This document shows, piece by piece, positions 1 through 18,860 of a DNA stretch of 25,102 bases. Numbering within the stretch: position 1 is the stretch's first letter; every line of letters begins with the position of its first letter. The notes beneath the pieces are model-generated. The model did no database searches, had not been told where the DNA came from, and was given only the letters and a program-made list of their open reading frames with translations. The DNA is from a virus. A program made the position numbers and the translations under genes. Where the stretch lies: IMG/VR virus record IMGVR_UViG_3300048837_000333, positions 1 through 25,102 of that record; one strand, 5' to 3'.

Positions 1-597
1 AATACACATAAAAAAGAGCTTAATAAAGGTGTTCATATAAACAATAAGCTACAAGAAGCATATTGTTTATATGGAGAACCTCTTTGTATAATATTAGAAG
101 TATGTACTATAGATGTTCTTACAGTAAGAGAAACTTATTGGATCAATGATTTTGATTCTGTTGAAAATGGATATAATATAGTGTATCCTTCGTGGAATGG
201 TAGTGGTCCTTATTACTCTAATAGTAAATATGATATATTAACTGTAATAAAGGTATTTAGATATAGTTATCTAGATCTTTACAAGAATCTAACGTATAAT
301 GAAATTGCTCTAAAACTAAATGTATCTGCTGCACTTGTAAATAGTATACGTAGTCAAAAGAGTCACTTATGGTTAAAACAGCGGTATCCCTATCAATATA
401 ATAAAATGGTAGCACTGCTAGGTACTAGAAATGGTAAACTTACACATAAGAAATATCTTATTAAGTCACCTACGCTAGAATTATTTGAAATTAGTAATAT
501 TTCTCAATTTGCTAAGCAAAATAGTTTGGATAGAAGGCATTTACATAAAGTAATTCAAGGAAAGGCTAAATCTCATAAGGGATGGGTATTAGCGTAA
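1..597 (+). CDS. GIY-YIG homing endonuclease, 5' end cut by window edge
   Basis: The reading frame is open from the first base, so the N-terminus with the GIY...YIG motif lies outside the window. The visible 198 residues begin with the second half of a GIY-YIG domain. An HKKELNKGVHINNKLQEA segment is followed by VRETYWINDF, where the Glu matches the catalytic Glu of the family, and then GYNI. A helix-turn-helix-like stretch follows (YNEIALKLNVSAALVNSI). The last 40 residues look like a NUMOD-type DNA-binding module, ending in a GKAKSHKGWVLA pattern. This architecture is typical of phage homing endonucleases such as the Seg and I-TevI kind, which cut DNA to spread their own gene. I see no group I intron core downstream, so it may be free-standing or belong to an intron whose core lies to the left. 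The family call is firm; the role is inferred. Confidence 0.85.
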   Translation, partial: NTHKKELNKGVHINNKLQEAYCLYGEPLCIILEVCTIDVLTVRETYWINDFDSVENGYNIVYPSWNGSGPYYSNSKYDILTVIKVFRYSYLDLYKNLTYNEIALKLNVSAALVNSIRSQKSHLWLKQRYPYQYNKMVALLGTRNGKLTHKKYLIKSPTLELFEISNISQFAKQNSLDRRHLHKVIQGKAKSHKGWVLA

Positions 598-610
598 CCT
601 CCACGAAGTT

Positions 611-917
611 TGCCGGGTTCCTTGTTAAATAATACCCGGCACACTAACGGATATGCTCTAAACCGTACCAAAGGGTGGTATGTACGTAACGTACGGGTTA
701 CAGAGGGCCGGAATTCCCAAGACTGCCTAACAAGCAGCGTGAGCATATCCATTAGTGTTCGTATACGTAATTAGTCTAGACCCTAAGTCGCGGCAACTTC
801 TTAGGATTGAAAATGCTAAAAACCCGTAGGCCTTGCCGGGTCATTACTGAATAAAACACAGGGTGCATAGCCCTAAGATCTCGGATTATTGGTTTGACGA
901 GCCCGCTCTGATGGCGG
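611..917 (+). ncRNA. Candidate structured RNA in a 350-base gene-free stretch
   Basis: Positions 598-948 carry no convincing gene but many helices. An 8-bp hairpin pairs 611-618 with 634-641. A long-range helix pairs 642-658 with 741-757 (17 positions, one C/A mismatch). It encloses a multibranch domain with hairpins 666-670/676-680, 682-686/690-694 and 723-726/734-737. Further hairpins pair 782-787/800-805, 822-826/837-841, 860-863/871-874, 880-883/898-901 and 903-906/914-917. TTGCCGGGT occurs at both 610-618 and 833-841. The location beside a phage tRNA cluster resembles that of large phage RNAs such as GOLLD, but I cannot match it to that family. It could also be leader or intron-derived sequence. 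The strand is assumed from the neighbours. Confidence 0.4.
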
Positions 918-948
918 TGTAGTTTAAGATGTACGACTAATTACTTAT

Positions 949-1525
949 ATGAATAAAGGCTATACTAAGTCTGTTTGACTATTCCGGAAATTGGTCCGCC
1001 CCATATAAAGAGGCAGGCTATGACGTATATCAAATAGACATTAAACATGATATAGACATCCTTACAATAGAATACGAAGATATTGTAAACAAAAACGTTT
1101 ACGGCATTCTAGCAGCCCCGCCGTGTACCGACTTCGCCGGATCGGGCGCACAATACTGGAAAGTTAAAGACGCTGATGGCAGAACCGAGGCGTCTCTAGC
1201 TCTTATAGATAAGGTGTTAGAAATTGTTTCCTGGTTCCCGGATATTAAGTTCTGGGTGCTAGAAAACCCCGTAGGACGACTACAAACGTTGCGTCCACAG
1301 CTTGGGAAGCCCTGGTATTTTCAGCCACATTGGTACGGAGATCCTTGGACTAAAAAGACTGGTTTATGGGGCAAATTTAATAAAGAACTGCCTAAAAATG
1401 AAGTAGCTCCTGACCCTAATTCTTGGATAATGAAGTTAGGTGGTAAGTCCGAACGTACAAAAGAGCTACGTAGTATGACACCACCGGGCTTCGCAAAAGC
1501 TTTTTTTGAAGCAAATAATGGATAG
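949..1525 (+). CDS. DNA cytosine-5 methyltransferase-like protein, apparent +1 frameshift near start
   Basis: The product resembles small phage C5-methyltransferase-like proteins that would transfer a methyl group from S-adenosylmethionine to DNA cytosine. Visible motifs are LSLFDYSGNWSAPYKEAGYD (motif I region), AAPPCTDFAGSG with the PPC motif that holds the catalytic Cys, and VLENPVGR (motif VI-like, ENP instead of ENV). At about 190 residues it is shorter than full C5-MTases, with no obvious target-recognition domain. The coding frame is open from 953, but the only nearby ATG (949) is one frame off. ATG AAT AAA is followed by an extra G; without it the protein would start MNKAILSLFDYSG. 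This may be a real mutation, a sequencing error, a non-canonical start or a +1 shift at AAA-G. There is no strong ribosome-binding site before 949. Family is likely; activity is uncertain. Confidence 0.7.
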
Positions 1526-3826: not shown

Positions 3827-4215
3827 CACTACAGGTCGGTAATGCTAATACTGTAGATATTAAGCCCGAAGATTTACAGGTTGCATATAGAGGGGTTATC
3901 GCAGCAGTCAAATGTGTACAGGTTAATGAGTCTTTTGAAGTTCTAGCTTGCATTAAGAAAAACGACGCCTGGTTGGTTTCTAGTAAGCTGTACTCCGACA
4001 CTCTTAGTAGTCTAGAATTAGCTGTTAAGAAACGAGGGGATGCTGTGAGCTGGATAAAGGACGGATTGCTGCCTAAGATTAATGAATGGCTAGGGGCTTT
4101 ATTTCCACCCAATAAAGTGGCGGAAGTTTCTGCTATAGCGATAGAAGTTGATAGAGCTGTATCGGGCATTAGGTTTATAGCCCATGCAGACGGTACATTA
4201 GTGGCAACACTATAA
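3823..4215 (+). CDS. Hypothetical protein, 130 aa
   Basis: The protein begins MTLQVGNANTVDIKPEDLQV and contains a helical, mildly basic middle (LSSLELAVKKRGDAVSWIKD). A C-terminal strand-rich part ends ADGTLVATL. No known motif or membrane segment is seen. ATGA coupling to the gene before suggests the two products are made together. Its TAA stop directly touches the first base of tRNA-Phe, repeating the tight packing seen across this cluster. Function unknown. Confidence 0.75.
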   Translation: MTLQVGNANTVDIKPEDLQVAYRGVIAAVKCVQVNESFEVLACIKKNDAWLVSSKLYSDTLSSLELAVKKRGDAVSWIKDGLLPKINEWLGALFPPNKVAEVSAIAIEVDRAVSGIRFIAHADGTLVATL

Positions 4216-4291
4216 CCATCTTTGGCGTAGCTGGTGCGCGCGCTGGTCTGAAGAGCCAGAGGACTTAGTTCGATTCTAAGAGGGTGGGCCA
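4216..4291 (+). tRNA. tRNA-Phe(GAA)
   Basis: The acceptor CCATCTT pairs with AGGGTGG (4281-4287) using two wobble pairs. The anticodon arm CTGGT-CTGAAGA-GCCAG gives GAA. The T arm is CTTAG-TTCGATT-CTAAG, and CCA is encoded. The discriminator is G and the first pair C-G, unlike the G1 and A73 of typical bacterial tRNA-Phe. Confidence 0.87.
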
Positions 4292-4298
4292 TAAAGTG

Positions 4299-4374
4299 AG
4301 AACGCCGTGATTAGTCCACCGAGGTAGGGCGATGCGGAAGCTAATGGACGTGCCCAAGACGGCGTTCTTTCTTT
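4299..4374 (+). ncRNA. Closed structured element between tRNA-Phe and tRNA-Asp (small RNA or elaborate terminator)
   Basis: AGAACGCCGT (4299-4308) pairs perfectly with ACGGCGTTCT (4359-4368), followed by T-rich TTCTTT. The 50 bases inside can form GTCCA/TGGAC (4314-4318 with 4345-4349) and CCG/CGG (4319-4321 with 4335-4337). GGGC/GCCC (4327-4330 with 4352-4355) would cross the GTCCA helix as a pseudoknot. A plain terminator would not need such an interior. tRNA-Asp follows within three bases. Confidence 0.5.
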
Positions 4375-4376
4375 AT

Positions 4377-4456
4377 GGCGTATGGGACTGCTTGGTTGTG
4401 GTCACCTGCCTGTCACGCAGGATATCAGACGGGTTCGATTCCCGTATACGTCGCCA
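4377..4456 (+). tRNA. tRNA-Asp(GTC)
   Basis: The acceptor GGCGTAT pairs with ATACGTC (4446-4452). The anticodon arm CCTGC-CTGTCAC-GCAGG gives GTC. The T arm is ACGGG-TTCGATT-CCCGT. Discriminator G, as expected for Asp, and CCA are encoded. Confidence 0.95.
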
Positions 4457-6726: not shown

Positions 6727-7008
6727 ATGAAACGTCTAATCTTTAACTATCGTAAATCTAATGGTGAAGTCTCTACCCGAGACCTTTTGGCTTTTGTTAC
6801 TCCAAGCAATAAATATGCTGGTATCGACATGAGCTCACTAACGTCTCCAGAAGATGTAGAGGATTTTACGGCTGAAGCTACTGCTCTGCATACTGAGTTT
6901 GTGCAAAAGATGGCAGCACTTCAAGCTAAATATGATCTGAAGCATAATTATCGACAGTTTCTAGAATCAGGCGTTTCTATGCTAGAAGAAGTTGAGGCGC
7001 GAGTGTGA
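6727..7008 (+). CDS. Hypothetical protein, 93 aa, with 3' end overlapping tRNA-Trp
   Basis: The protein starts MKRLIFNYRKSNGEVSTRDL. A short strand-rich N-terminus is followed by two helices that could form a coiled hairpin (EDVEDFTAEATALHTEFVQK, then MAALQAKYDLKHNYRQFL). No catalytic motif is seen. Its own promoter lies 26 bases upstream of the ATG. The last five codons and the TGA fall inside the tRNA-Trp gene, the second tRNA/CDS overlap in this window. Function unknown. Confidence 0.8.
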   Translation: MKRLIFNYRKSNGEVSTRDLLAFVTPSNKYAGIDMSSLTSPEDVEDFTAEATALHTEFVQKMAALQAKYDLKHNYRQFLESGVSMLEEVEARV

Positions 7009-7068
7009 CGGTTGCATACAGGTCTCCAAAACCTTGTGGATGGGGTTCGACTCCCTAGTGCTTCGCCA
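6994..7068 (+). tRNA. tRNA-Trp(CCA)
   Basis: The acceptor GAGGCGC pairs with GTGCTTC (7058-7064) with two wobbles. The anticodon loop CTCCAAA gives CCA. The T arm is TGGGG-TTCGACT-CCCTA, and discriminator G plus CCA are encoded. It begins 15 bases before the end of the preceding coding sequence. Confidence 0.92.
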
Positions 7069-7076
7069 TGTTCAGT

Positions 7077-7152
7077 AGTGAGTATAGTGTTAGCGGTTAG
7101 CACGCAAGGTTGTGGCCCTTGTAGCGCGGGTTCGAATCCCGCACTCACCCCA
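7077..7152 (+). tRNA. tRNA-His(GTG) with an irregular acceptor stem
   Basis: The D stem is GTGT/GCAC. The anticodon arm CAAGG-TTGTGGC-CCTTG gives GTG, and the T arm is GCGGG-TTCGAAT-CCCGC. The acceptor pairs GTGAGT with ACTCAC over only six positions, then C73 and CCA. One base is missing from the 3' strand compared with E. coli tRNA-His. The -1 base encoded is A (7077), not the usual G. Confidence 0.88.
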
Positions 7153-13065: not shown

Positions 13066-13931
13066 CACCAGTAGCTAAACTACTTCAGGCTAAAGGTATA
13101 CCCTTTAGTTCCTCTGGTAGAGACTATGTAATTAAGTGCCTAAACCCCAAACACGACGACTCCAACCCGTCTTTTAGGGTCGATAAGGTTTCAGGGCTGG
13201 CGCATTGCTTTGCTTGTGGGTATAAACGTAACCTGTTTAAGCACTTTGGTGTTTTTTCAGCAGCTTTAGTCCCTGTAAAAGTAGAAAAACTAAAAGAAAA
13301 GATACAGGAGATAGTGTCAGGCACCGCCAAAGAAGTGAGTTTGCCCAAAGGCGCAGTACCTTATACACAATCTTTTAGAGGTATATCAGCTGCTACGTAT
13401 AAACACTTTGGAGCGTTTTATACTCATGAGGATGATGCGTACGAAAATAGAATAGTTATACCCATTAAAGATATAACTGATAAAACCATAGCTTTTATTG
13501 CACGACATGTCGATAGAAATACAGAGCCCAGATACAAAGTATTTCCAGCTAAAACACCTCTGCCCTGTTATCCTGCTATAGTACCAAATACCCATACGAT
13601 AGTCCTGGTCGAGGGTATCTTTGACATGATGAACCTATACGATAAAGGTCTAACAAATTCAGTTTCTATCTTTGGCGCTAATAATCTAACTAATACTGCG
13701 CAGTATAAAATGTTAGCATATAAAGCGCAAGGCATTCATACAGTATACCTATTAATGGATGGAGACGATCCAGGAAGGGCTGCAGCAGCAGAGCTAAAAC
13801 CAGTCTTAGAGAGTTTAAACTTAAAAACACACATAGTCGAACTGGAAGAAGGTCAGGATCCGGGTGGACTATCCAAGAAAGAGGTAGATGTGTTAAATAG
13901 GATGATAAATGGCAAAAGTAGCGATAATTGA
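13056..13931 (+). CDS. DNA primase, DnaG/TOPRIM-type, 291 aa
   Basis: The enzyme would make RNA primers for lagging-strand synthesis. The N-terminal zinc-binding domain is visible as CLNPKHDDSNPSF and HCFACG (residues about 28-60). It follows the CHC2 pattern with two extra residues between the first Cys and His compared with DnaG. The TOPRIM domain has the catalytic Glu in TIVLVEGIFDMMNLY (about 180-195) and the metal-binding aspartates in YLLMDGDDPGRAAA (about 228-241). It lacks a C-terminal helicase-interaction domain, so it is short, like other phage primases. It overlaps both the helicase gene (10 bases) and the polymerase gene (23 bases). Confidence 0.93.
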   Translation: MELTPVAKLLQAKGIPFSSSGRDYVIKCLNPKHDDSNPSFRVDKVSGLAHCFACGYKRNLFKHFGVFSAALVPVKVEKLKEKIQEIVSGTAKEVSLPKGAVPYTQSFRGISAATYKHFGAFYTHEDDAYENRIVIPIKDITDKTIAFIARHVDRNTEPRYKVFPAKTPLPCYPAIVPNTHTIVLVEGIFDMMNLYDKGLTNSVSIFGANNLTNTAQYKMLAYKAQGIHTVYLLMDGDDPGRAAAAELKPVLESLNLKTHIVELEEGQDPGGLSKKEVDVLNRMINGKSSDN

Positions 13932-15626
13932 TAAAGCCCCCTCTAGAAACGACTATTCGAAGTATTTTGACTTTGAATTTGATTTGTACCACATGTCTAG
14001 CATTCCAGTGCAAAAGTTACTCAAAAAAGACATTGATTTAGAAGTCTATCTAGAAGAGTATGGCTATGTTATATGCGTAGGTTCTGAGGCTTCTAAAGAG
14101 TATGCAGGCGTCACGAAGGTGACCGACTATGCTGGTCAGCTGGTACGAGAAAAGTTTATCTGCATTCCTAACCCTGCAGTGCTTATCTTCAAACCTGAGG
14201 GTAAGGCAGAATTTGATAGAGCCGTAGACAAGGTTAAAAAGTATGTATCCGGAGAAGTTAAAGATGGTGTTAAATTTGGCGATTTTAAGGGCATTGATAA
14301 TGGAGATGAAGCCTATAACTTTTTACTACAGGCGCTCGAAGACGAAGGCTCAGTAGTTGCTCTAGATACTGAAACTACGGCCCTATATCCTAGGGACGGA
14401 TATGTTTTAGGTTTATGTATATCATATAAACCTGGACAGGGTAGATATATTCTATCTGACGTACTTGAAGATAGACACATGGAGTTGATACAGAAAATTG
14501 TGGATACTAAAGAAATAGTATTTCACAATATGAAGTTCGACTACAAAATGATTGAGTATCACTTTGGTATTCGGTTTAGAGACGACCACGTGCATGACAC
14601 AATGGTTATGCACTACATTCTAGACGAGAACTCCTCCCACGGTCTTAAGCCTCTAGCTATTAAATATACCAGTTATGGGGACTATGATACTGAGTTGTCG
14701 GAATTTATAGATAACTACTGTAGGCTGCACAGCGTATTACGTGATGACTTTACTTGGGACTTAATTCCTTTTGAAATTATCTCTATATATGCTAGTATTG
14801 ACCCTGCAGCCACTTTAGAAATATTCTTTAAATTTAAGCCGCTTATTGACGGCAATGCTAAATTTAAGAAAGTGTATTATAATATTCTAAGGCCTGGAAC
14901 ATTGTTTCTCCACAGAATGGAAGAGCACGGTATTCCGATCAGCAAGGAGAGGATGATAGGTGCTGAAGGCTACTTGGACAGGACTATCGAAGAAGCTAGA
15001 AATTTACTTTATACTTTCGATGAAGTAAAGCAGTTTGAAAAAGACAGCGGGGTTATATTTAATCCTAACTCAGTACAGCAACTTCGAGTTCTTCTATTTG
15101 ACTATCTAAAACTTCCACATCCAGGAAAGCGTACTAAAACTGGAGCACTCTCTACAGATGCAGAAGTTTTGCAGGAATTAGAGCATTTACACGAGCTTCC
15201 GAGAGCTCTGTTAAATATACGCCAGCTAACCAAAATTAAGAACACCTATGTCACGAAGATTCTAGCCGAGCTAGATCGTGATGGTAGAATCAGAACGAAT
15301 TTTAATCTGATATTTACCACATCAGGTAGACTTTCTAGTTCCGGTAAATTTAACGCACAACAAATTATACGTGACGATCCTATTATTAAAGGGTGTATAG
15401 TAGCTCCAAAAGGCTATAAAGTCGTCTCACAGGATTTACAAACAGGCGAAATGTATTATGCGGCTGTATTGTCGGGAGACAAAGAGTTGCAAAAAGTGTT
15501 TATCGAAGGAGGAGACTTCCACTCTTCGATTGCAAAAATGGTTTTTAACCTTAATTGTGTTGTAGAAGCCGTAAAAGAAATCTTTCCGGCTATGAGGCAA
15601 TCAGCCAAGGCAATCTCATTTGGGAT
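13909..15626 (+). CDS. DNA polymerase (family A, D9-like), 5' exon
   Basis: This exon encodes about 573 of the 765 residues of the joined polymerase. A 3'-5' proofreading exonuclease is seen at VVALDTETTAL (about residue 150), FHNMKFDYKM (about 205) and a later ASIDPAATLE. The polymerase part begins with TSGRLSSSGKFNAQQI (about 470). Motif A is VVSQDLQTGEMYYAAV (about 505), where Asp is kept but the usual SQIEL is SQDLQ-like. Motif B starts RQSAKAISFGI (about 563) and is cut by the intron after the second base of the Ile codon. Without splicing, translation would end at TAG 15646-15648 after six intron-encoded residues. The exon joins 16084-16663. Confidence 0.93.
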
Positions 15627-15644
15627 TAACCTACAAAGGTCCCG

Positions 15645-15792
15645 CTAGTAAGTGATTACTAGGTAATAAACTCGCTCAATTGCTGGAACCCCTATTATTA
15701 AGTTAAGGGCAATCAGCAGCCAGAGTTGCCAGGAATGGCTTCAAATGGTTCAGAGACTGACAGTACTTCCAGAACGGAAGTAGCTGCGATAC
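15645..15792 (+). repeat. 148-base block shared exactly with the helicase intron (copy 1)
   Basis: This block is identical, base for base as I read it, to 17858-18005. It covers P2 through P7.1 of the ribozyme core. A second shared piece, TATAACACGGCGAGTATCT, follows in both introns (P3' region). Confidence 0.95.
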
Positions 15793-15907
15793 CTAAAAAT
15801 ACTCTTGAAACTTATATGGCACAGGTGTATAGTATACCTACGCCATGAAAATTTTGGGAGAGGTATAACACGGCGAGTATCTCTCCCTACACAACAAAGT
15901 AGGGTTT

Positions 15908-15985
15908 ATGACTATAGAATATACAAAATATTTGGAATTAAAGCAGCAAGGCTTAACAAGAGCTAAAATTGCGAAGTATATTTAG
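15908..15985 (+). pseudogene. 25-codon remnant of a homing endonuclease in the polymerase intron
   Basis: ATG 15908 opens MTIEYTKYLELKQQGLTRAK, then IAKYI and a TAG stop. It resembles the N-terminus of the LAGLIDADG protein in the helicase intron (MNELTKEVFLNLREQGLTFK). It lies at the same place in the intron, between P8 and the S element. No LAGLIDADG motif is left. I read it as a decayed endonuclease gene; it could also be a coincidental short frame. Confidence 0.6.
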
Positions 15986-16083
15986 ATAGAAAATACGTCT
16001 TATACGATCGTATAGTGGTCAATAGTATAAGGCAAAAGAGATAAAGGTATAGTCCATCCCGATAGTAATATCGGAATACGATG

Positions 16084-16663
16084 TTTGTACGGTTCCGGGC
16101 CACAAAAGGTATCGGACACAGTTTCAAAAGCTACCGGAGAGTACTACGGAATAGATAGGGCCAAGGACGATATTAACGCATACTTTACTAAGTTTAAGAA
16201 GTTAAAGGCTTGGTTAAATAGTCGTAAAAAGTTTATAGAAGAGAACGGTTACACATATTCGTTCTTTGGACGTAAGCGTAGACTATTAAATGTATTCTCA
16301 CAAGACAAGGGTATTGCAGCACATGAAGTTCGTTCAGGAATTAACTCTGAAATTCAGTCTGTTTGTAGTGATATCAATCTACTAGGAGCAATGGATACTG
16401 AACAGGAGATTAGGTCCAGGGGACTTGATGCCGCTATAGTAATGCTAGTACACGACTCTATTGTTGGTATAGTTAGAGAAGACTGTGTAGAAGAATACTG
16501 TGAAATTCTAAAACGTAATACTCAGAAAGACAGAGGTTGTTCTATTCCAGGCTGCCCTATCGGAGTAGATCAAGAGGTTGGCGATGACTATTCGTTCGGA
16601 AAATTTGACAAATTCTATAAGCTTGATGGAAATATCCTATCCCGTCTTCTTCCTAGGAAATAA
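16084..16663 (+). CDS. DNA polymerase (family A, D9-like), 3' exon
   Basis: Exon 2 supplies the last 192 residues. It starts with the rest of the O-helix (the T completing Ile, then LYGSGPQKVSD). The fingers follow (YFTKFKKLKAWLNSRKKFIE, YSFFGRKRRLLNV). Motif C is AIVMLVHDSIVGIV near residue 690 of the joined protein, where the Asp is kept but the usual following Glu is Ser. The joined protein is 765 residues, somewhat shorter than T5 polymerase (about 855). It copies the phage genome 5'-3'. Because the intron separates motif A from motif C, splicing is required for activity. The following gene starts inside its end. Confidence 0.93.
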
Positions 16664-17485: not shown

Positions 17486-17838
17486 TGCCAAAAGCAGTAA
17501 TATCTGATCGAATATATTTAACTCCTAGGGACAAGGATCATCACAATGTTATAGTAAAGGAACTAACATATAAAATAGCCACTAAAGTACCAGTACGCGG
17601 TGGTAGTATGCGTACAGCTATAGAAATAATTAAGAACTATAAACTCTATGCTGGTGGTATTATCTCTATGCCGCAAGGGCGGCTGGACTTAATTCCTGAT
17701 GATTATGAGATTGTGGATAAACGCATAATTAATCCTATGCCATTTCCCGACCCACTGATTCCTTTAAGACCGCAACAACAAGAAGTATACGATAAGGTTG
17801 AGGATTCCTGCTTCATCAACGCTCTAGTAGGCTGGGGT
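17485..17838 (+). CDS. SF2 DNA helicase (T5 D10-like), 5' exon
   Basis: Exon 1 gives 118 residues. A basic N-terminal domain (MPKAVISDRIYLTPRDKDHH and onward) leads to a Q-motif-like IPLRPQQQEVYDKV. It then ends within the Walker A motif at INALVGWG. Read straight on, the frame runs nine codons into the intron (SLKSCPPSK) and stops at 17866-17868. Joined to 18861, the motif becomes ALVGWGKTFTAL, a complete helicase motif I. The start ATG overlaps the previous stop. The joined protein has 433 residues, close to T5 D10, a DNA helicase with branch-migration activity. Confidence 0.92.
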
Positions 17839-17857
17839 AGCCTTAAGTCTTGCCCTC

Positions 17858-18005
17858 CTAGTAAGTGATTACTAGGTAATAAACTCGCTCAATTGCTGGA
17901 ACCCCTATTATTAAGTTAAGGGCAATCAGCAGCCAGAGTTGCCAGGAATGGCTTCAAATGGTTCAGAGACTGACAGTACTTCCAGAACGGAAGTAGCTGC
18001 GATAC
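17858..18005 (+). repeat. 148-base block shared exactly with the polymerase intron (copy 2)
   Basis: This is an exact copy of 15645-15792. The sequence diverges at once on both sides: the guide sequence upstream differs to fit another exon, and the region beyond P7.1 is shorter here (about 10 bases before the shared P3' piece against about 75). Confidence 0.95.
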
Positions 18006-18068
18006 TAAATTTAGTATAACACGGCGAGTATCTTATATATTATTCAAAACCACATATGGGAATATATC

Positions 18069-18839
18069 ATGAACGAACTGACCAAAGAAGTATTTCTTAA
18101 CTTAAGAGAACAAGGACTAACTTTTAAACAAATAGGAGAGCTTTACAATCTAACAGAACGTCAGGTTAATTACAGAACAGTAAATAAATGGAAGCTAAAT
18201 TACTCTAGGAAAAAGAAGTTAAATGAATCTTTCTTTAGTAGTAATACAAAAGCGGCTTACTACTGGGCAGGTATGCTTGCCGCTGACGGTTGGATAGAAG
18301 CTGATAGAAATAGAGTGGGACTAGCTTTGCAGAGTCAAGACGTGGACCATCTGTATAAATTTAAGCTAGCTATTTCCTCTGAGCACGATATTTGTGCTTT
18401 TATGGACGGTACTGCCAACAGAATACGTTTTAATAGCATTAAAATGGTTGAAGATCTAGAAAATATCTTCAATATAACCTCTAATAAAACCTTTACGTAT
18501 TCTATGCCGCTATTTGAGGAGAATTACTTAATGCTCGAATTTCTTCGTGGTTATATAGATGGAGATGGCCATCTGGAAAAAACTGCTTCTGGAAGGGTTG
18601 CGTTACATCTGTGTTCTGCTAATGAGAAGTTTCTACAAGAGTTTAAAGATATTTGTGAGTTTCTACTGGAAAGATGTATTGCTCAAAATATTAGTCTAAA
18701 GGTTAACAAAAAAGGTCAGGTATACAGCATACGGCTAAACTTAGATGATAGCAGAGACATGCTCAAGCTATTGTACGCAAATTCTACAGAAAAAACTAGG
18801 TTAAGTAGAAAGTATGCTATTGCGTTAAATGTGTTATAA
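18069..18839 (+). CDS. LAGLIDADG homing endonuclease inside the helicase intron, 256 aa
   Basis: The protein would cut an intron-less helicase gene so that repair copies the intron into it. An N-terminal HTH (VFLNLREQGLTFKQIGELYN, about residues 9-40) is followed by two LAGLIDADG motifs. These are YYWAGMLAADGWIE (about 61-74, catalytic Asp kept) and LRGYIDGDGHLE (about 160-171, catalytic Asp kept). Two motifs in one chain imply a monomeric enzyme. The ATG has only a weak GGGA upstream. The stop TAA touches the intron's S element, so the gene fills a ribozyme loop without disturbing the core. Confidence 0.93.
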   Translation: MNELTKEVFLNLREQGLTFKQIGELYNLTERQVNYRTVNKWKLNYSRKKKLNESFFSSNTKAAYYWAGMLAADGWIEADRNRVGLALQSQDVDHLYKFKLAISSEHDICAFMDGTANRIRFNSIKMVEDLENIFNITSNKTFTYSMPLFEENYLMLEFLRGYIDGDGHLEKTASGRVALHLCSANEKFLQEFKDICEFLLERCIAQNISLKVNKKGQVYSIRLNLDDSRDMLKLLYANSTEKTRLSRKYAIALNVL

Positions 18840-18860
18840 GATAAAGGTATAGTCCATAAG

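Follow-up and report, generated by a model that had tools for sequence, protein, structure and literature searches.

Two abutting long stems in a gene-free stretch of a phage tRNA cluster as candidate processing helices

The window considered here is a whole virus record of 25,102 bases (IMG/VR record IMGVR_UViG_3300048837_000333), from a phage with a DNA polymerase most similar to the one in Vibrio phage pVp-1 (48.7% identity), a T5-like member of the Demerecviridae. Ten tRNA genes lie within the first 7.3 kb of the window. In this tRNA gene cluster, positions 598-948 separate an I-TevI-like endonuclease ORF, which has a PHROG homing endonuclease match at 4.5e-10 and a match to the I-TevI catalytic domain 1ln0 at 3.5e-6, from a DNA methyltransferase ORF (Table 1). 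As the first-pass annotation had stated, no gene is recognisable between the two: the stretch contains no tRNA and matches no Rfam family, and for two of its open frames no relatives were found in IMG/VR.

Table 1. Positions of the stems, their component segments and the genes to either side, together with a comparable stem elsewhere in the window
Feature	Position	Strand	Remark
I-TevI-like (GIY-YIG) homing endonuclease ORF, C-terminal part	1..597	+	open at contig start
Hairpin TGCCGGGT / ACCCGGCA	611-618 with 635-642	+	minimum-free-energy and centroid folds
Stem HA, 5' arm	641..658	+	pairs with 741-758 at 17 of 18 positions
Head of HA, with about four small hairpins	659..740	+	predicted fold
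Stem HA, 3' arm	741..758	+	pairs with 641-658
Stem HB, 5' arm, abutting HA	756..776	+	pairs with 935-955
Segment enclosed by HB, 158 nt	777..934	+	no more structured than shuffles
Stem HB, 3' arm	935..955	+	pairs with 756-776
DNA methyltransferase ORF	953..1525	+	PHROG 757, 7.4e-46
Comparable long stem bridging tRNA-Phe and tRNA-Asp	4288..4379	+	score 17.3

Two long stems, HA and HB, dominate the stretch, and both are real structural elements, far beyond chance. HA had been described as a pairing of 642-658 with 741-757 that contains one mismatch; this pairing is confirmed and extends to 641 and 758, and its score of 15 was equalled in 0.05% of 2000 dinucleotide shuffles of 598-960. HB, which is flush with HA and absent from the first-pass annotation, scores 16.6, a value equalled in none of 2000 such shuffles. 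Scores of at least 15 occur for only three stems in the entire window (HA, HB and the stem at 4288-4379), against 0.1 expected. A short hairpin with a loop of 15-16 nt precedes HA and is also flush with it, the last base of the hairpin being common to both. The stretch folds more stably than shuffles, with z -2.1 for 598-948 and z -3.1 for 598-960, and this stability is unevenly distributed, with z -4.3 for the first half (609-760) and z +0.8 for the segment inside HB (777-934). The multiple hairpins that had been proposed for the rest of the stretch accordingly lack support in the second half, where the hairpins inside HB are no better than chance. A repeat of TTGCCGGGT is indeed present at 610-618 and 833-841, but it is weak and not significant, as a repeated 9-mer is expected about 0.2 times in 351 bases by simple arithmetic. 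Because the opposite strand of the stretch folds equally well, the strand given for HA and HB was taken from the flanking genes.

The presence of a structured, gene-free element beside the tRNA cluster is supported by these data, but the suggestion that it may be GOLLD or a GOLLD-like RNA is not supported by the comparison with Rfam that had been proposed as its check (cmscan for GOLLD, ROOL and others). The full library gave no match to the stretch at E <= 5 (positions 1-1700) and matches at chance level only at E <= 10 (positions 560-980), with the phage's own two group I introns, which score 61 and 44.4 bits, as the positive control. GOLLD was absent from the full-library scans at both thresholds. 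ROOL (RF03087), searched by name without a positive control, gave no match and was likewise absent from the full-library scans. Both families resemble the stretch in being gene-free, structured sequence beside phage tRNAs. However, the GOLLD and ROOL RNAs known so far exceed it in length (574 positions in the ROOL model), whereas the stretch comprises 351 bases, lacks an Rfam match and is not structured beyond chance in its second half (777-934), in place of an ornate, conserved fold. Two further candidates were rejected: a group II intron, for which there was no match in the full Rfam scans or with the group II model RF01998, and a tRNA with an intron, for which relaxed tRNA searches gave noise only.

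Homologues of the stretch were sought by several routes, all of which reach close relatives only. No homologue was found by blastn against phages and plasmids, exact-pattern scans of IMG/VR gave no hits or chance hits only, and back-translated scans with two open frames in IMG/VR, and with one of them in GTDB genomes, returned no relative. A covariance model built from the single sequence, and so of limited reach, found no homologue in 36 sources or in 31 related records, and 29 related loci lack the stretch. These results bear on whether the stretch could be an independent noncoding RNA gene that represents a new class, with a length of about 330 nt and transcription together with the tRNA cluster. 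We regard this as unlikely. The far better than shuffled folding of 609-760 would suit such a gene, as would the lack of any known family and of any open frame with relatives. However, half of the proposed RNA (777-934) is not structured beyond chance, no promoter-like site was found on its strand, and the absence of a homologue in related phages or elsewhere searched is unusual for a functional RNA class.

The downstream border of the stretch is complicated by the start of the methyltransferase gene, for which the ORF list gives no standard in-frame start before position 1214. The methyltransferase proteins of most related loci start with M or V shortly before ILSLFDYS. An ATG at 949-951 in the window lies at the same distance from ILSL as the starts of the relatives, but its frame is shifted by one base (ATG AAT AAA G GCT ATA CTA AGT CTG, read as M N K (+1) A I L S L). 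From its position this ATG is likely the native start of the methyltransferase, and a one-base insertion near 958 or an assembly error is the simplest reading of the offset; a spliced or noncanonical start is also possible. The 3' arm of HB overlies the ATG and reaches into the start of the gene, an arrangement that could suggest a 5' leader of the methyltransferase message, with HB as a riboregulator that regulates translation by masking the start codon. The placement of the ATG inside this arm agrees with a leader, which we nevertheless consider distinctly improbable: the frame of the ATG differs by one base from that of the ORF, no evident ribosome-binding site precedes it, relatives are without such a leader, and there is no significant alternative fold inside HB.

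The main rival of a role for the stems in RNA processing concerns the same border. It proposes that an unrecognised self-splicing intron, inserted at the start of the methyltransferase gene, encodes the I-TevI-like endonuclease and has the stretch as its 3' part, so that splicing would provide the missing start codon. Such an intron would account for an I-TevI-like, intron-type endonuclease immediately upstream, for a methyltransferase ORF without a standard start and for the absence of the stretch from the 29 related loci; the phage also has true group I introns, and UUUAAGAUGUACGAC at 923-937 is loosely like the group I S element. Td-like group I introns with GIY-YIG endonucleases present a comparable combination of an I-TevI-like ORF, a structured stretch and an abnormal gene start. 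Unlike these introns, however, the stretch is without a detectable core, although the true introns of the window are detected: the group I model RF00028 found nothing at 598-958 at E <= 10, as against 61 and 44.4 bits for the real introns, and there is no group II match. A group I core drawn by hand (P3 588-596/764-771, P7 757-763/932-937) has a drawable topology, but its guanosine site is U-A and not G-C, it lacks P5, J4/5, J6/7 and P9, and it was rejected. In addition, HB extends beyond the only plausible splice site, and the ATG at 949 is placed where relatives start; the native start region thus seems to be present, which counts against an intron boundary there. Overall, the end of an intron is a rather unlikely reading of the stretch. 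The true introns of the window, at 15617-16075 and 17824-18860, are copies of one group I intron and have nearly identical 5' parts. The first interrupts the family A DNA polymerase gene (13909-15648 and 16085-16663), and the second carries a LAGLIDADG endonuclease ORF (18069-18839) and interrupts a helicase-like gene.

The loci of related phages provide a different context for HA and HB. Of 33 records from environmental phages related to the Demerecviridae, 16 (including L083-L098) have a score above the cut-off of RF04321, the permuted two-piece tmRNA, in their tRNA clusters. This tmRNA gene often lies upstream of the same methyltransferase gene, within about 1.1 kb in the records checked, which are some of the total. 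In L013, for example, the permuted tmRNA occupies 2420-2682 and the methyltransferase is at 2924, and in L004 the corresponding positions are 4072-4431 and 5001. A long stem capped by a small head makes up the segment that separates the two tmRNA pieces. This linker helix covaries strongly and is maintained by compensatory change, with 37 cells changed on both sides of its arms against 10.0 +/- 2.4 in shuffles, and with 93% paired against 36-44% when the arms are slid. The covariation check proposed in the first-pass annotation thus had a positive outcome for a stem of the same form in related phages. The stretch shares with the linker helix a long, A/T-rich stem of 15-22 bp, a small head and a flush short hairpin, and both lie just upstream of the same methyltransferase gene.

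The frequency of RF04321 upstream of the methyltransferase in related records, together with a T-arm-sized hairpin that directly adjoins a long helix in the manner of permuted tmRNA precursors, allows the stretch to be read as a highly diverged permuted tmRNA or tRNA-like gene. However, such a gene is very improbable here. Neither RF04321 nor RF00023 matches 598-948 at E <= 10, relaxed tRNA searches return only noise, and the stretch has no T-loop, GGUUUCGA, CCA or acceptor stem. Nor does it have a convincing tag frame with a conserved short hydrophobic tail at its end, as inspection by eye found none comparable with ANDAFYGEVRLAA of L013. It further differs from the RF04321 precursor in having two stems, with no RNA pieces recognised on either side. 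Elsewhere in the window, a sub-threshold RF00023 match at 7007-7143 (24.5 bits) overlaps tRNA-His (7077-7151) and is probably tRNA-His itself. Among the related records, the intervening segment of an apparent permuted tmRNA, whose pieces score 46.5 and 25.1 bits and thus fall below the RF04321 cut-off, contains an HNH-endonuclease-like ORF of 209 aa, called by its motif (L107 962-1591, minus strand, record G026), and a longer intervening segment with a small open frame (MDILCAHHAKDPETCKW...) occurs in L083 (L017 1698-1848).

Long stems in these clusters extend beyond the tmRNA. A long-stem class was defined here by form, as an intergenic stem with a score of at least 15 and a loop of 25-180 bases that exceeds shuffles, and HA (15.0) and HB (16.6) have this form. 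A survey of 17 related loci yielded 36 stems scoring at least 15 against 1.2 expected (about 30-fold), although some of the loci are kin to each other and the counts are therefore not independent. By our own count, 21 of the 36 are at a tRNA or tmRNA, 14 of them abutting or enclosing a tRNA and seven linking tmRNA pieces. The remaining 15 include HA, HB and L025 3874-3964, and about three of these 15 fall inside open frames and may have no connection with RNA. The stem at 4288-4379 of the window has its edges 3 and 2 bases inside the ends of its two tRNAs, and a stem in L013 (7085-7191) also joins tRNA-Phe to tRNA-Asp; the arms of these two stems are unrelated in sequence yet near-perfect. In L004, a long stem (6781-6875) surrounds tRNA-His, and in L025 a gene-free, structured, stem-bearing stretch of 315 nt (z -3.2) stands directly before the same methyltransferase gene. 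The tRNA spacer and leader-trailer stems of these phages are like HA and HB in stem length, loop size and position in the cluster; however, they have tRNAs at their edges, whereas no tRNA lies within 60 bases of HA or HB, nor do these abut or enclose a tmRNA piece, and the 158 nt within HB exceed most spacers. A narrow search of the open-access literature found no description of this long-stem set of phage tRNA clusters.

The placement of the surveyed stems also bears on the proposal that HA and HB act as DNA, as a cruciform or a recombination or replication signal, or are the relic of an inserted element, with no role as RNA. Both strands fold equally and the two stems abut as inverted repeats, as would be anticipated for a DNA element. 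However, the stems of related loci sit at the ends of tRNA and tmRNA transcripts, which points to RNA, and we give a purely DNA role scant probability.

Two additional features were noted in the related loci. In L029 (8537-8723), a 22-bp stem around 143 nt ends in a T-arm (GAGGTTCGACTCCTC) and has the look of a tRNA-like RNA that is oversized or interrupted. A small motif, consisting of a 6-8 bp stem, UUACUUC, a hairpin and a closing strand, recurs in L025 (2316, 3908 and 3979), L030 (2985 and 3063) and L002 (3191); some of its copies continue into T-arm-like sequence, and those in L025 and L002 have no Rfam match.

Taken as a whole, these observations favour, tentatively and at somewhat less than even probability, a reading in which 598-955 is transcribed with the tRNA cluster but not translated and bears two abutting long-stem elements, most likely processing helices. 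In this phage related to the T5-like Demerecviridae, HA and HB, with the short hairpin before them, would lie within the tRNA-cluster transcript; elements of this form recur in the clusters of related phages, where they bridge adjacent tRNAs, surround a tRNA or connect the two pieces of a permuted tmRNA. An RNase III-like or tRNA-maturation activity could then cleave the double-stranded stems, which are about 17-20 bp long, and so separate the homing-endonuclease message from the methyltransferase and tRNA part. HB may also keep the methyltransferase start inaccessible until the stem is cleaved or opened. We infer the processing function from the positions of the other long stems and from what is generally known of RNase III substrates. 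RNase III processing stems occur in bacterial rRNA and phage transcripts, and HA and HB resemble them as long double-stranded elements that enclose or separate stable RNAs, although HB differs in overlying a start codon. Membership of HA and HB in the long-stem class rests on form and place and is accordingly presumptive; it counts against a processing role that no tRNA touches either stem, that the searches made returned no homologue of the stretch, that the opposite strand folds as well, and that the class is defined by form, with no shared sequence.

A broader and more doubtful extension of this model proposes that the clusters use widespread, as yet undescribed long-stem modules with fast-changing heads for the organisation and processing of their transcript, and that 598-955 is a double module carrying or excising a noncoding RNA of a new class. 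If the processing reading is right, the stretch would be one case of a general feature of phage tRNA clusters, in which long double-stranded modules join, enclose or separate stable RNAs and of which the permuted tmRNA would be the best-known example. The processing of phage tRNA arrays would then become testable, and many gene-free structured stretches that otherwise resemble separate new RNAs would be explained. The stretch also illustrates that a very stable fold next to tRNA genes does not necessarily indicate a GOLLD-like RNA.
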